DNA from: Petasospora fabianii
Lineage: Eukaryota; Ascomycota; Saccharomycetes; Phaffomycetales; Wickerhamomycetaceae
NCBI GenBank assembly: GCA_022641835.1
Contig: CP048716.1
Coordinates: 310,001 to 374,000, forward strand
DNA length: 64,000 nt
Reading direction: 5' to 3'
The notes under the pieces are model-generated. The model saw nothing but the letters and a program-made list of their open reading frames with translations. It was not told the DNA's origin and searched no databases. Below, one piece after another: positions 22,371 to 49,044 of this stretch. Within the stretch, counting starts at the first letter, position 1. Each line of letters opens with the position of its first letter. The position numbers and the translations under genes were made by a program.

Positions 22371-24242
22371 ATGTTCAAAAAGGCCCTGTTGCTCGGTGCG
22401 CTCGCCATTCTCGGTGATGCTGCTCCACTTTACAGACGTGCCAACTCTACAGCTCCCTCCTTGCGAGACTTCTGTGATGTCTCCAACATTCAAGATGCTA
22501 TCCCATCCAATGGCACTCTCAATGGTATCGATATTCTTCCAGACTCAGTAACTGCCTCCATTGTAAGAACTCCCGGTAATCTAACATCTTCCTATGGCAG
22601 CTTGAACTCGACAAACAGCACGTCGAGCAGTGGCTCCGGTTCTTCGTCTTACAATTATTGTAACGTCTCTCTTCAGTACGTTCACACTGGCACTGACTAC
22701 CTCGTTACTTTGGTCTACGCCTTCCCAGACCCTCAGGACTTCAAGAACCGTTTTTACTCCGCTGGTGGTAGTGGTTACTTGCTCAACACTGATGCCACTG
22801 GTGGTTTGCCATACGGTGCCGTCTCTGGTGCCACTGATGCCGGTTATGACTCGTTAGATGGTGTTTCTTTTGACGAGATTGTCCTTTTCGGTAACGGTAG
22901 CTTGGATTGGGAAGCCACCTTTATGTTTGGCTACCAGGCTCTTGGTGAGTTGACAATTGTTGGTAAGGAATTGACCAGAAACTTGTATCAAGTTGACGAC
23001 GACCAGAAGATTTACACCTACTTTGAAGGTTGCTCGGAGGGTGGTCGTGAAGCTATGTCCCAGGTTCAGAGATATGGTGAGGAGTATGATGGAGTTATTG
23101 CTGGTGCTCCAGCTTTCAGACTGGCTTTGGAAAGGGTTGGTCATGTTGCCCCAGCATTGTACGAATATGTTGAGGACTACATCCCAGAGCCATGTGCTCT
23201 TTCGACCATTGTCAACTTGACCATCGAGGCTTGTGATGACCTCGATGGTAGAGAGGATGGTGTCATTGGAAGAACTGACTTGTGTTTGCTCCAATTCAAC
23301 CTCTCGTCATTGATTGGCGAGTCATACAACTGTGATGCCTCCACCATTACCCCTCTGGGCTTTGGATTCTCCAACAGCTCCAACAGTTCCATTACAGGCT
23401 CGTCACACTACAACACCTCCACAGCAGGCTCGCCTTCCTACGCTGTTCCAGCTCAGAGCGGTACTATCTCTGAAGAGGATGTGTTAATCGCTCAAAAGGT
23501 TTGGGATGGTCTTCACAACAACGATGGTGAGAGGGCCTATGTTGGCTGGCAGATTGGGTCTGAGTTGTCTGACGCCGAGCCTACTTACAACAATGACACT
23601 GATGACTGGGAGATCAACATTCCATCCACCGGTGGTGAGTGGATCACAAAGTTCATTGAGCTCATTGACCTCGACAACTTGGAGGACTTTGATGGTGCCG
23701 ACTACGACACTGCCGTTGAATGGATGAACACTGGCCTTGTTAGATTTTGGGATTCCCTGCAGACTGTTTACCCAGACCTCAGCACTTTCCATGAGTCTGG
23801 TGGTAAGTTGCTCCACTATCACGGTGAATCCGATCCATCTGTTCCAGCTGCCTCTTCTGTTCTCTACTGGCAGTCGGTTAAGAAGTCGTTGTATGGTAAT
23901 CTCACTTTGCAAAACCAGATTAAGGCTCTTGACGATTGGTATCAATTGTACTTGATTCCGGGTGCTGGTCATTGTGGTGCCAACTCTCTTCAGCCAGGTC
24001 CATACCCACAGACCAACATGGAGATAATCATTGATTGGGTTGAGAACGATCACACGCCAGCTGGGTTGAACTCTACTGTCACATCCGGTAAATTCAGTGG
24101 TGAGGAGCAGCTATTGTGTAAGTTCCCACAACGTCCAGTGTGGCAGGGATCTAACTCTTCCTCTTTCGACTGTGAGTTTGATGAGGATGCTTATCAAACT
24201 TGGAATTACACCTTCCCAGCTTTTGATTTACCAATCTGGTAA
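22371..24242 (+). CDS. Secreted tannase / feruloyl esterase family enzyme
   Basis: 623 residues. The N-terminus MFKKALLLGALAILGDAAPLYRR is a signal peptide followed by a dibasic RR that Kex2 could cleave. The family's CS-D-HC signature is complete. Catalytic Ser222 is in 'GCSEGGREAM' with Cys221 just before it, Asp488 is in 'GESDPSVPA', and His534 is followed by Cys535 in 'GAGHCG'. The two cysteines next to Ser and His form the characteristic disulfide. Many N-x-S/T sequons fit a glycosylated secreted protein. Tannases split galloyl esters of hydrolysable tannins; feruloyl esterases release hydroxycinnamates from plant cell wall. Sequence alone does not tell me which. S. cerevisiae lacks such an enzyme; tannase is known from some non-conventional yeasts. 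The promoter has a strong TATA box, suggesting induction. Confidence 0.9.
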   Translation: MFKKALLLGALAILGDAAPLYRRANSTAPSLRDFCDVSNIQDAIPSNGTLNGIDILPDSVTASIVRTPGNLTSSYGSLNSTNSTSSSGSGSSSYNYCNVSLQYVHTGTDYLVTLVYAFPDPQDFKNRFYSAGGSGYLLNTDATGGLPYGAVSGATDAGYDSLDGVSFDEIVLFGNGSLDWEATFMFGYQALGELTIVGKELTRNLYQVDDDQKIYTYFEGCSEGGREAMSQVQRYGEEYDGVIAGAPAFRLALERVGHVAPALYEYVEDYIPEPCALSTIVNLTIEACDDLDGREDGVIGRTDLCLLQFNLSSLIGESYNCDASTITPLGFGFSNSSNSSITGSSHYNTSTAGSPSYAVPAQSGTISEEDVLIAQKVWDGLHNNDGERAYVGWQIGSELSDAEPTYNNDTDDWEINIPSTGGEWITKFIELIDLDNLEDFDGADYDTAVEWMNTGLVRFWDSLQTVYPDLSTFHESGGKLLHYHGESDPSVPAASSVLYWQSVKKSLYGNLTLQNQIKALDDWYQLYLIPGAGHCGANSLQPGPYPQTNMEIIIDWVENDHTPAGLNSTVTSGKFSGEEQLLCKFPQRPVWQGSNSSSFDCEFDEDAYQTWNYTFPAFDLPIW

Positions 24243-44574: not shown

Positions 44575-47500
44575 ATGAAGCCACTCACAAAGTGGACGAC
44601 ACTGGCCCTTTTGGCTGGACCCACCTGGGCTCAGTACTTCAATAGCTCCTCTGAGTCGACCCGTTCTTCCGAGTCAACAAGATCTTCATTAATATCCACA
44701 CCTTCATCAAATAGCATCTACTCACCCAGCACAGACTTGTCATCATCAACATTATCCGAAGACAGCTCCTTCGTCTACTTCCCATCATCATCAACAGTCG
44801 ACGATACATCATCAGCGGTCTCATCCTCGGAAGAGGCGACTTCCTCCATGCCATTCACTTTCAGAGGTGCCATGGAAGATGGTGCCCCTCGCTGGGTCCT
44901 CTCCATCCCAGGTGACGCATTTGGTACGTGGACGTCTGTGACAACAACGTTTAACAGAAATGCTCGTTCAGATGGTTTCGTTTTCTCAGATGCCACGGTT
45001 GCAGTCGATGATGTCGTGTCTGATGACGCTGCAATCACTAGAACAGATGACAATGTCTATGTTGATGTTAACTTTCCCATCCCACTGGACTCCACCATGG
45101 TCATCAATATTGATGGAGACGTCACCAGTGGCTCCTCTTGGGGTGTACATGGTCAGCTTGTGGTCACTACAGCGGACTCCAAGAAGCTTCTCAAAAGGGC
45201 TGTGTACTCATATGATTTCAGTACTGAGGTTAACAATGACGGTTCATATTCTGAGTCCTCTTCTTTTGAGCTGGAATCCTCAGAATTTGTTTCTACTTCT
45301 TCAGACGATCTTGTCTCGTCGTCAGTGGAGTCATCAATGAGCACAAACTCGGACGCAGTATCAGAGTCTTTCCTGAGTTCCGAGTCATCTACTGCTGAGA
45401 CTTCTTCCTCTGCTATTGCGGACTCCTCGGAGTCAAGCAATGCCTCATCATTCCCAAGCGACTCGTCTTCAGCTTCAACGGATGAGTATTCTTCTGCTTC
45501 AAGTGATCTCATCTCTTCTACAAGTGAATTTTCTTCAGTGCCCTCTCAAGAGTCCTCGGTCCCAAGCGAAGCATCCTCTCTTCCGAATGAGTCCATATCA
45601 AGCTCTGCAGACGAGTCTTCCATCCAAGATGGATCTTCTTCCTCTGTTTCCGACTCTTCCTCATTGGCAGCTGAGGAGCCATCTCTTTCAAGTGGGTCTG
45701 ACACTTTCTCAACGGAGAGCTCATCTTTGGACATCGGCTCCACGACTTCAGCAGAAGAGTCATCTAATTCAAGTGACCACTCCACCATACCAACTGAGTC
45801 GGACTCTGAGCCAAGTGAGCCGTCTTCCTCTTCGGCTCATGAGTCCTCCATTGCAAGTGAATCAGGGTATATCTCATCTGAGCCTTCCTCTGTTGCCTCA
45901 TTCGACGAGTCATCTACCCTATCTGAGTCTTCATCACTTTCATTGGATCAGTCATTTTCCTCCTCAGTTGAGTTCGCTTCCACTGAATCTGAATCACTTT
46001 CATACCCATCAGAGCAGTCATCGAATCCTAGCGAGTATTCATCTCTTGCATCAGAGTCTTCCGAAGACTCGTTCATGTACGAGCCATCGTCTTCTTCCGC
46101 TTCATCAACTGAGTCTTCTATTGCGCTTACTCCATCTGAATCTTCATCTCTTCCAGCAGACTCTTCTTCCGCTTCATCCATTGAGTCTTCTGTTGCTCCT
46201 ACACCATCTGAATCTTCATCTCTTCCAGCCGAATCTTCCTCTTACGACGATATCTCTTCTACTGCTAGCGAGTTGAGCTCTGCCACAGATAATGAGGAAT
46301 CGTCATTCATCTACTCGGCTTCCTCGAATTTATCAGAGGACTCGTCAGCTCCACTTGAATCGTCTTCTTTCAGTGAGTCTTCGTACATCCCATCTGAAGT
46401 GTCCTCCCTTGTGGAGTCTTCGTCTACTGCTGGCGATGAGTCCTCAAGCCCTGAGGAGTCTTCGTCTACTGCTGGCAATGAATCCTCAAGTCCTGAAGAA
46501 TCTTCATCATTCCCACATGGGTCAATCTCCATAACAGCTTCTTCTTCCTCAAGTGACCTTGTCTCTGTGACAAGTGAAGAGTCCAACGTCTCATCTGAGC
46601 TATCAACCACACCAGCGGCTGAGTCCTCTACGGCACTTGAGTCTTCATCTCTGTCTGTTGGTGTCTCCTCTGAACCTTCGATCTCAGGCGAGATATCTTC
46701 GATCCCTACTGAGTCTGTTTCACTCCCGGCTGAAGCATCATCACTTGCATCTGAGCTGTCTTCCACTGTGTCTGAAGAGTTGTCCTCGACAACTGACGGC
46801 TCCTCTCTTCCTAGTGACGAGTCTTCGCTTCCAACTGGATCTGAATCTCTCACGTCTGAGGATTCGTCTTCCTTCAGTGATTTCTCCTCCCCATCAATTT
46901 CAGAGTCGTCTGCTCCAGTTGCTGAGCCTTCAACATCACTTGAAGAATCATCCAGTTTGAGTGAGGAGTCTTCGTTCTTGTACTTCCCTTCATCTTCTTC
47001 AGCTTCTGACTCATCGGTTCCGGTGGATACATCATCTATTCCTGTTGACGAGAGTTCTGTTCCAACTGAGCCATCAACACTTCCAGCTGAAACGTCATCT
47101 GCACCGATTGATGAGTCTTCCAATCCAGATGAAGAGACATCATTCATGTACGAGCCATCTTCGGTGGCTAGTTCCTCATCCTCTGATGTTGGTACAGGTG
47201 ACACAGAGGTTCCAAGCTACACATTATCAGGATCTTCTCATGAGTCAGCTTCTTCTCCGGTTTCCGAGTCTCTTGGTGGGTCCAGTGTTGAGTCTACTGA
47301 GCCAGCCTCCCTCACCACTCCAGCCTCTGAGGAGTCCACTTCATCTTCCAGCACCTCTAGCGAGACTTCCTCTGATGCCTTGACTGATGTCCCAACCCTT
47401 AGAGGAGAATACAACAATGGTTCTCCGTACTGGATCTTGGAAGTCCCAGCATCTCTTGGTCCATGGACATCCATCTCATGTGATTTCTCCAGGGAAGGTG

Positions 47501-49044
47501 GCGACTTTGACTTTGAGGAGCCATCTGTCTTTGCCGGTGCCACGGATATGACTTCGGATGCAGCAATTGTTTCAGCCAGCGACACGGTTTCTGTTCTCGT
47601 TGACTTTGTCACGACAGATAATCTCTTTGTCAATGTGAGTGCCTTGATGACAAGTGAAGCGATCACTGCCGGTGTGTTGGTTGAGATTACTACTCCGGAT
47701 AGTAAGAAGCTGGTCAAGAGAGCTGTTGCTACTTATAAGTTGGACAGCACTATCACGATTGATGATGTTTCATCCTCATCTGATGCAGGTTCTGGGGCTT
47801 CTACTGCTATCACTTCTGTGTCTTCTAGTGTTGCCACAGGTGGTACTTCTGCAGTGACATCCACTGAATCAACCGTGTCCACAACTGTCATAACCACCAC
47901 ATCATGCTTTGCTGGTATTTGTTCCACCGGTGAAGTGACGACCGGGTTGACAACTGTCACAACAACCAAATCTGGTATTGTGACGGAGTACACAACATAC
48001 TGTCCACTCACAGAGTCCAACTCTGGAAGACCTGCCATTACAGGAAGCGCACACACTGAGACCATTGTTGCATCTTCTACCACTGTGGTTACCATCACCT
48101 CTTGTTCTGAGAACAAGTGCTCCAAGATCCCAGTTACCACTGGTGTTGATGTTGTCACTGTAACATCCGAAGGTGTTGTCACTGAGCACACAACATACTG
48201 TCCATTGACTGCTACTACTGTTCACACTGGTGCCACCGGTGTTGTTGCTAGTGATTCTATAAGCACAGTTACTGAGGCTGGCATTGAAACTAGTGCTAAG
48301 ACCACTACTGAGACTGTCATCACAACTCCAGTCTCCGTTAGTACCGCTGTCTCTGTTGATGCCACAACAGCATCCACCACTATTATCATTGCCGACTCTA
48401 CCACTGTTATCACTGTCACTTCCTGTTACGAGAACCACTGTGATGTGACTCCAATAACCACTGGTGTCACCGTGGCCACTTTCGCTGCAGGAGGCACAAG
48501 TTCTGCCATCACATATTATGTTCCTTTGAGCACTACTGTTACTCTTGCAGGCGGAGCTGGTGCTCGTGCTGGTCCCTCCACTGCCATTGCTTCTTCCTCC
48601 GATACAGCTACTGGTGCTGTCACCACTGTCACTCTTGCCTCTGGTGAGACAGCACCAACAGATTCCCAGAGTATCGCTAGTGGCTCATTATCCAAGACTG
48701 AATCGACATCGACAGTTTATGTTACTTCTGGTGCCTCTACCACTACTACTAAGGCTGGTGTTGAGGGCTCCAACACTATTGATGCCTCATCCAGCATCGC
48801 ATCCAGTGCATCTGCTTCCGAGACCACAGATGTTAATCCCTCTTCCCAAACTGTTGACAACGGCACTGATGCTCAAGACACAACCAAGACACAAACAGAT
48901 ATCACCACAACACAAGCCACATCATTCTCTGACTCTTCGTCTACGACAGCCACTGTATCAGTTAACACTGGTGCCGGTACTGCAAACATTGTGAAGGGAT
49001 CGACGATATTCGGTATACTCCTTCCATTGTTCTTCATCTTCTAA
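44575..49044 (+). CDS. GPI-type cell-wall adhesin with duplicated novel domain and Ser-rich stalk
   Basis: 1489 residues. Signal peptide MKPLTKWTTLALLAGPTWAQ; hydrophobic C-terminus (about 1472-1489, ending LLPLFFIF) typical of a GPI signal. Domain A at about 94-218 and a second copy at about 938-1060 share '[FL]RG..-G.P.W.L..P', 'WTS', 'DAAI' and 'DSKKL-KRAV'; I cannot assign them to a known family. Both end in Lys-Arg (207-208 and 1048-1049), possible Kex2 sites. Between them, about 220-936, is a serine-rich stalk dominated by S/E/P/D. Aromatic islands SF-x-Y recur at Phe66, 500, 578, 801 and 857. Three threonine-rich, cysteine-containing repeats follow (about 1102-1322: 'TSC....C...P.TTGV', ending 'YCPL'), like those of flocculins. 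Probably covalently linked to cell-wall glucan after GPI processing. Ligand unknown. Confidence 0.9.
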   Translation: MKPLTKWTTLALLAGPTWAQYFNSSSESTRSSESTRSSLISTPSSNSIYSPSTDLSSSTLSEDSSFVYFPSSSTVDDTSSAVSSSEEATSSMPFTFRGAMEDGAPRWVLSIPGDAFGTWTSVTTTFNRNARSDGFVFSDATVAVDDVVSDDAAITRTDDNVYVDVNFPIPLDSTMVINIDGDVTSGSSWGVHGQLVVTTADSKKLLKRAVYSYDFSTEVNNDGSYSESSSFELESSEFVSTSSDDLVSSSVESSMSTNSDAVSESFLSSESSTAETSSSAIADSSESSNASSFPSDSSSASTDEYSSASSDLISSTSEFSSVPSQESSVPSEASSLPNESISSSADESSIQDGSSSSVSDSSSLAAEEPSLSSGSDTFSTESSSLDIGSTTSAEESSNSSDHSTIPTESDSEPSEPSSSSAHESSIASESGYISSEPSSVASFDESSTLSESSSLSLDQSFSSSVEFASTESESLSYPSEQSSNPSEYSSLASESSEDSFMYEPSSSSASSTESSIALTPSESSSLPADSSSASSIESSVAPTPSESSSLPAESSSYDDISSTASELSSATDNEESSFIYSASSNLSEDSSAPLESSSFSESSYIPSEVSSLVESSSTAGDESSSPEESSSTAGNESSSPEESSSFPHGSISITASSSSSDLVSVTSEESNVSSELSTTPAAESSTALESSSLSVGVSSEPSISGEISSIPTESVSLPAEASSLASELSSTVSEELSSTTDGSSLPSDESSLPTGSESLTSEDSSSFSDFSSPSISESSAPVAEPSTSLEESSSLSEESSFLYFPSSSSASDSSVPVDTSSIPVDESSVPTEPSTLPAETSSAPIDESSNPDEETSFMYEPSSVASSSSSDVGTGDTEVPSYTLSGSSHESASSPVSESLGGSSVESTEPASLTTPASEESTSSSSTSSETSSDALTDVPTLRGEYNNGSPYWILEVPASLGPWTSISCDFSREGGDFDFEEPSVFAGATDMTSDAAIVSASDTVSVLVDFVTTDNLFVNVSALMTSEAITAGVLVEITTPDSKKLVKRAVATYKLDSTITIDDVSSSSDAGSGASTAITSVSSSVATGGTSAVTSTESTVSTTVITTTSCFAGICSTGEVTTGLTTVTTTKSGIVTEYTTYCPLTESNSGRPAITGSAHTETIVASSTTVVTITSCSENKCSKIPVTTGVDVVTVTSEGVVTEHTTYCPLTATTVHTGATGVVASDSISTVTEAGIETSAKTTTETVITTPVSVSTAVSVDATTASTTIIIADSTTVITVTSCYENHCDVTPITTGVTVATFAAGGTSSAITYYVPLSTTVTLAGGAGARAGPSTAIASSSDTATGAVTTVTLASGETAPTDSQSIASGSLSKTESTSTVYVTSGASTTTTKAGVEGSNTIDASSSIASSASASETTDVNPSSQTVDNGTDAQDTTKTQTDITTTQATSFSDSSSTTATVSVNTGAGTANIVKGSTIFGILLPLFFIF
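45232..47382 (+). repeat. Serine-rich, low-complexity coding repeats of the adhesin stalk
   Basis: About 715 codons mostly of the form (E/P/D)-S-S-(S/L/A). Near-identical sub-repeats include two 'ESSSTAG(D/N)ESSSPE' units around 46415-46500 and paired 'SSLPADSSSASS-ESS-A-TPSE' units around 46117-46215. The region gives long ORFs in other frames that are shadows. Length variation between strains is expected. Confidence 0.8.

Follow-up and report, generated by a model that had tools for sequence, protein, structure and literature searches.

Our analysis of a wall-protein gene in the window (the whole 64,000-nucleotide stretch of DNA that was analysed) supports, on the basis of sequence comparison and structural modelling, a modular β-sandwich domain that is placed between a variable head and anchor repeats in at least nine GPI-type wall proteins. 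According to the models, a Lys-Arg pair (KR) sits within the last hairpin loop of this domain or where that loop ends. It is a distant zonadhesin/Als-type domain with an apparently new conserved candidate nick site; the fold, the cutting of wall proteins by Kex2 and the doubling of adhesin domains (Flo11) are already known. Yeasts release adhesins and enzymes from their walls, and to our knowledge it is not well understood how a covalently anchored wall protein releases its head. If the domain were nicked but held together, different heads would share a genetically encoded point of release that responds to force or conditions; it would be usable for surface display, and a single point mutation would test it.

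Two copies of one domain in the window protein

The gene is an intact open reading frame of 1489 amino acids at window positions 44575-49044 on the forward (+) strand, which also carries all the features described below. From its N-terminus, the protein appears to comprise a signal peptide, domain copy 1, a Ser-rich stalk, domain copy 2, a Thr-rich region and a hydrophobic GPI-type tail, of which the signal peptide and the tail were read from the sequence by eye. Copy 1, a predicted β-sandwich, spans aa 92-225 (44848..45249) according to the alignment, the AlphaFold model and Foldseek. The stalk (45250..47388) has 713 aa by composition count, with 41% Ser, 18% Asp plus Glu and zero Lys/Arg; the original prediction of about 700 serine-rich residues between two regions that align along their length was confirmed. 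Copy 2, also predicted to be a β-sandwich, spans aa 939-1067 (47389..47775), as placed by the model, Foldseek and the tree. It is followed by 422 more residues including three Flocculin_t3 repeats, so that the suggestion of a domain near the wall needs correcting in that copy 2 does not adjoin the anchor. These repeats are at 47881..48012 (C2:357881-358012), 48079..48210 (C2:358079-358210) and 48400..48531 (C2:358400-358531), where the coordinate on contig C2 is the window coordinate plus 310000; all three were found by a Flocculin_t3 search of the genome, the second one also by the Pfam scan. With its three repeats, and with the signal peptide and tail as read by eye, the window protein fits the GPI wall proteins that carry Flocculin_t3 repeats.

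Lys and Arg are absent from the window protein between residues 208 and 943 (aa 209-942; window 45199-47400), so that a protease specific for basic residues has no target in this part and the KR sites stand alone. A SF[VLMI]Y motif occurs ahead of copy 1 (aa 63) and within the stalk (aa 497, 575, 798 and 856), and in four of the five cases PSS comes next. These motifs may possibly be sticker or aggregation sites. The pattern was found in none of the eight paralogues described below; a similar SFLYAGSS is present in another Flocculin_t3 gene (L050). Elsewhere in the window, positions 22371-24242 (+) encode a Tannase/feruloyl esterase family protein (PF07519, E 1.7e-113), the start of which looks secreted.

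Residues 94-218 and 938-1060 aligned with 39% identity in a single pairwise BLASTP comparison (E 1e-17), and slightly longer versions of the two regions gave a Smith-Waterman score of 166, whereas 2000 shuffles scored 34.6 on average and 64 at most. These two tests ruled out that the similarity is a chance match between serine-rich, low-complexity stretches. In the comparison across the family copies, the pairwise identity of copies 1 and 2 was 32%. AlphaFold2, with an alignment of ten copies as its input, modelled both domains (pLDDT 91.2 and pTM 0.86 for copy 1; pLDDT 90.8 and pTM 0.85 for copy 2), and nine strands in an identical order were seen in the two models when these were compared by strand order. 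These data bear out the proposal of two related globular domains on one stalk, for which structure prediction had been named as the check. A recent duplication within the gene was ruled out, because copy 2 clusters with the copy of a paralogue (L060; 98/97 support) and not with copy 1; the latter had no settled place in the tree of the ten copies.

Fold and distribution of the domain

The domain had been called unassigned, and both profile and structure searches now place its fold. A profile built from the ten copies matched the second cohesin-like domain of Komagataella zonadhesin (5fx8_U) with an E-value of 5.7e-4, and a nine-copy profile did so with 2.9e-4. This match consists of two collinear pieces (N- and C-terminal) that were scored together, and the C-terminal piece, which bears the KR, reached 4.6-5.5 bits and is not significant by itself. 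Single-sequence searches with three copies returned no zonadhesin and nothing relevant. Foldseek ranked 5fx8_U first for copy 2 (E 1.9e-6, query TM 0.71, rmsd 5.0 Å) and third for copy 1 (7.0e-6, after CNA at 2.2e-6 and Als3 at 2.7e-6), and the matches common to both copies were zonadhesin, Candida Als and bacterial collagen-binding adhesins. The Als/MSCRAMM-type matches (CNA, ACE, Cnm, ClfA and SdrG) had E-values of about 1e-3 to 2e-6 at moderate query TM scores (about 0.45-0.72) and with an rmsd of about 3 to about 10 Å. A bacterial pilin (3pf2; profile E 0.16) was left unused, though it also appears in the copy 2 Foldseek list.

At E up to 10, the Pfam families listed for the whole window protein were Flocculin_t3 and, below the cut-off, NuBaID_C; Flo11, GLEYA, PA14, Als N-terminal and Hyr gave no match, and these were also absent from the five weak Pfam families of the ten copies. 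The weak matches (NuBaID_C, DUF2808 and others) were discarded as noise. With the Pfam Zona_CL2 model (PF22321), one of the ten copies matched, at an E-value of 0.14 that falls short of the curated cut-off, and a first look with this model at the whole genome gave 0 candidates. As the profile match is weak and the Pfam cut-off was not reached, we term the domain a distant zonadhesin relative and not a Zona_CL2 member. Its sequence profile and models thus identify it as a distant β-sandwich of the zonadhesin/Als/MSCRAMM type, with detectable homology to zonadhesin domain 2. The original prediction had left room for a known adhesin family to emerge from profile searches of the two copies; this came partly true, for the fold and a distant homology, and not for Pfam membership.

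Domain searches with four different copies as queries covered the genome from which the window comes (12.3 Mb in 16 contigs). Copy 2 and the L061 copy each found 10 copies, copy 1 found 9 and the L064 copy, which is the most divergent, found 5, and all these matches belong to one set of 10 copies in 9 genes. Searches for relatives elsewhere, in viral contigs with one copy and in prokaryote genomes with another, confirmed none. The eight paralogues, several of which lack the 5' end, were fetched, read and scanned against Pfam. Upstream of the domain, the nine genes differ: L058 has a phosphoesterase head (PF04185, E 1e-38), L064 a candidapepsin-like region, and L059, L060, L062 and L063 unnamed Cys-containing domains, while L057 has repeats there and L061 (524 aa from its first Met) only a short Ser-rich stretch. 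Downstream of the domain, eight of the nine genes, counting the window gene, have Flocculin_t3 repeats, and L062 and L063 have Hpf1_C repeats; L063 also carries its head-like domain a second time, placed after the domain and ahead of the repeats. By these gene layouts, the domain is usually located between head and anchor, which makes the window protein unusual in having it also at the tip.

Several further observations were made on these wall-protein genes. DTG is the usual first active-site motif of candidapepsins. In L064 (G000:C3:525500-529000), aa 1-379 of the open frame match Sap2 (phmmer E 7e-11), and the first active-site motif reads DTQ, while at the second KTR aligns opposite DSG; with these motifs, the L064 head looks like an inactive protease serving as the head of a wall protein. 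The Cys-containing heads of L059, L060, L062 and L063 had no trustworthy Pfam match at E up to 0.1 and appear by eye to be two more unnamed types: L062 and L063 each contain one type twice, and L059 and L060 each contain the other type once. Wall-protein genes of the Flocculin_t3 and Hpf1_C kinds (L042, L047, L051, L063 and fragments) are clustered at about 484-528 kb of contig C6. The L063 frame ends without a GPI-type tail, so this gene may be broken or misassembled. Another locus (L053; G000:C6:363615-366746) encodes a wall protein with four ELxAIxxDLxAHxxDYxxQI repeats around one Flocculin_t3 repeat.

Position and conservation of the Lys-Arg pair

The window protein has just two KR pairs, 207-208 and 1048-1049, which confirms the numbering of Ala209 and Ala1050, and the sole other adjacent basic pairs are a KK four residues ahead of each KR. 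According to the models and the motif register, the candidate Kex2 site Lys207-Arg208 (45193..45198) lies in the loop ahead of the last strand of copy 1, and Lys1048-Arg1049 (47716..47721) lies directly ahead of that of copy 2. In the copy 1 model, the last two strands are residues 97-108 and 119-129 and KR is 116-117; the last strand (aa 210-220; 45202..45234) would be on the anchored side of a cut. In the copy 2 model, the corresponding strands are residues 92-103 and 111-122, with KR at 110-111. Here, Arg1049 is counted as the first residue of the last strand (aa 1049-1060; 47719..47754), and the site may therefore be partly shielded. The ten-residue block of the KR loop has a pLDDT of 70-71 and the following block one of 93-94 in both models, the loop block being the lowest of all in copy 1 and second lowest, below the C-terminal end only, in copy 2.

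These positions bear directly on how a cut would act. The original prediction had taken the KR as the end of each domain and supposed that its cleavage would simply free the distal domain. The KR proved to be conserved, in all ten copies found, but not as a domain end, since a conserved strand comes after it; given the confident prediction of this strand, the simplest model could not be release of the whole domain by a terminal cut. We thus consider it unlikely that the KR is a plain shedding site at which Kex2 frees the head domain as a soluble piece, although excerpts of two papers provide precedents, namely, Flo11, whose shedding reportedly includes cleavage by Kex2 within the N-terminus (PMC8617999), and a domain release proposed for auris Scf1 (PMC11657238). 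A pure release site would more simply sit in a linker, and not inside a folded domain with a conserved strand behind it. With the KR inside the last hairpin, a Kex2 cut would instead nick the folded domain, leaving one strand to hold head and anchor, and with the last strand downstream of the cut the two halves should stay together at first.

The placement of the KR is the same throughout the family. In all ten copies found, it lies exactly four residues ahead of the aromatic residue in [YWF]x[LFI]xx[TE][IV], and MAFFT, unaided, aligned it in register in nine of them; the Asp/Asn-to-KR gap in the loop varies (1, 5 or 8 residues, the 5 of L060 by eye). The nine open reading frames, several without a 5' end, hold 11 KR pairs against 1.30 expected from composition. 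All 11 fall in the last hairpin loop, 10 of them at the exact register, L062 having two in its loop. The surrounding residues read [LF]-[LVI]-K-R-A in 9/10 copies; the L064 copy has Glu after the KR and no hydrophobic P4 residue. At the equivalent place, zonadhesin reads TTADSRKRALTSFVLDE, with K-R-A at an equal spacing to the last strand and also without a hydrophobic residue at P4. As a control, 11 Flocculin_t3 genes without the domain (L050 and L055 as partial sequences only) contained one KR, in the L055 tail, as well as RR pairs near the open-frame start of L032 (ahead of its Met) and of L042. These control genes come from a genome search with 42 Flocculin_t3 matches, five of which were left unread (one on C2, three on C6 and one on C13; three of them above the cut-off).

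Shared ancestry without function, with duplicates that have yet to diverge, might also yield a common KR, as the ten copies form one family in a single genome. Such an account is very improbable, however, given that identity falls to 18% between copy 1 and the L064 copy and is 32% between the window copies and yet the KR is always kept, and that a KR is also found in the zonadhesin of another yeast. A more serious, though still rather doubtful, possibility is that the KR stays uncut and that the basic loop (often KK..KR) has a structural or ligand-binding role, for example towards acidic wall mannan or surfaces. The copies do have further basic residues in the KR loop; excerpts of the literature record a conserved, probably uncut KR, with accessibility deciding Kex2 cleavage (Bader et al., PMC2515848), and a surface association of Scf1 via exposed cationic residues (PMC11657238). 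Against this, K and R remain adjacent and in register in 10/10 copies, even in L064 with its loop shorter than all others, as well as in zonadhesin, whereas the remaining basic residues in the loop are variable; a role of charge in general gives no obvious reason for such a fixed pair.

A proposed nicked link and its known counterparts

As for the protease, the genome yielded one gene with a proprotein-convertase P domain (subtilase domain E 5e-42, P domain 3e-23), the product of which shows a transmembrane stretch and a tail by eye. This candidate Kex2 reads LHKRA ahead of its catalytic domain, similar to the residues around the domain KR, and Kex2 cuts itself at such a KR site. A Lys-Arg site and a Kex2-like gene are hence present in the same genome, which makes the site a candidate Kex2 substrate. 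Folding takes place in the ER, and Kex2 acts at a later stage, in the late Golgi. The mechanism that we propose starts from the modular β-sandwich set between variable head and wall-anchor repeats in what would be at least nine GPI-type wall proteins. Kex2 would cut the KR in the late Golgi, once the domain has folded, giving a head-bearing piece and an anchor-bearing piece, the latter contributing the last strand; the two would stay joined non-covalently until force, pH or time parts them. In the window protein, two such links would act in series, at the tip and at the base of the Ser-rich stalk. We put this reading, a detachable link nicked by Kex2 in the KR loop with its halves held non-covalently, at somewhat short of an even chance. 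It would also account for the KR in the zonadhesin sequence. A bolder version, which we regard as less probable, is a yeast counterpart of the detachable links of the Notch-HD/SEA type in which a single β-strand would keep the heads, be they enzymes or adhesins, on the wall and the freed strand could be exchanged between nicked neighbours, resulting in force-gated shedding or strand-swap adhesion.

Among open-licence papers, which give a weak negative, we found no Kex2-type site conserved in the last hairpin of an Als/MSCRAMM-type domain and reused by a yeast between many heads and anchors; the terms adhesin, yeast, Kex2, beta-strand and noncovalent led to the Pir paper only, and zonadhesin combined with manganese lipoxygenase or with cohesin-like led to no paper. 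The arrangement of the window protein had been thought to be without a described example, but according to an excerpt of PMC6308950, some yeasts have two or three copies of the Flo11 domain, which is unrelated to the domain described here.

Among the nearest known systems is the second cohesin-like domain of Komagataella zonadhesin (5fx8 chain U, PF22321), which shares the profile and Foldseek matches and the K-R-A spacing; it differs in having a shorter KR loop and only 14-16% identity in the structural match, at an rmsd of 5.0 (copy 2) and 6.6 Å (copy 1). The N-terminal domains of Candida Als and of the bacterial MSCRAMM adhesins have the β-sandwich fold in common with the domain, but they are ligand-binding heads, mostly of two domains with the ligand-binding cleft between the two N-terminal ones, whereas the domain of the present family is single and usually found beneath another head; we know of no KR nick in the Als and MSCRAMM domains. 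The Notch heterodimerization domain has a fold different from that of the yeast domain and belongs to an animal receptor, so the likeness is an analogy of mechanism only. At its S1 site, a furin-type protease cuts a loop between strands of the folded domain and the halves stay together (excerpt of PMC2726630). Flo11 and Scf1/Rbt1 are also yeast surface adhesins for which Kex2 cleavage is reported or proposed (PMC8617999 and PMC11657238, both in excerpt), but the window protein had no Flo11-domain match in the Pfam scan. The S. cerevisiae Pir proteins, as described in the excerpted text of PMC10483737, are wall proteins that Kex2 splits at Lys-Arg, the two resulting subunits remaining associated by non-covalent contacts, with the differences that their predicted fold is a β-trefoil, that the cut-off strand comes from the N-terminal subunit I and that their linkage to the wall is another one.
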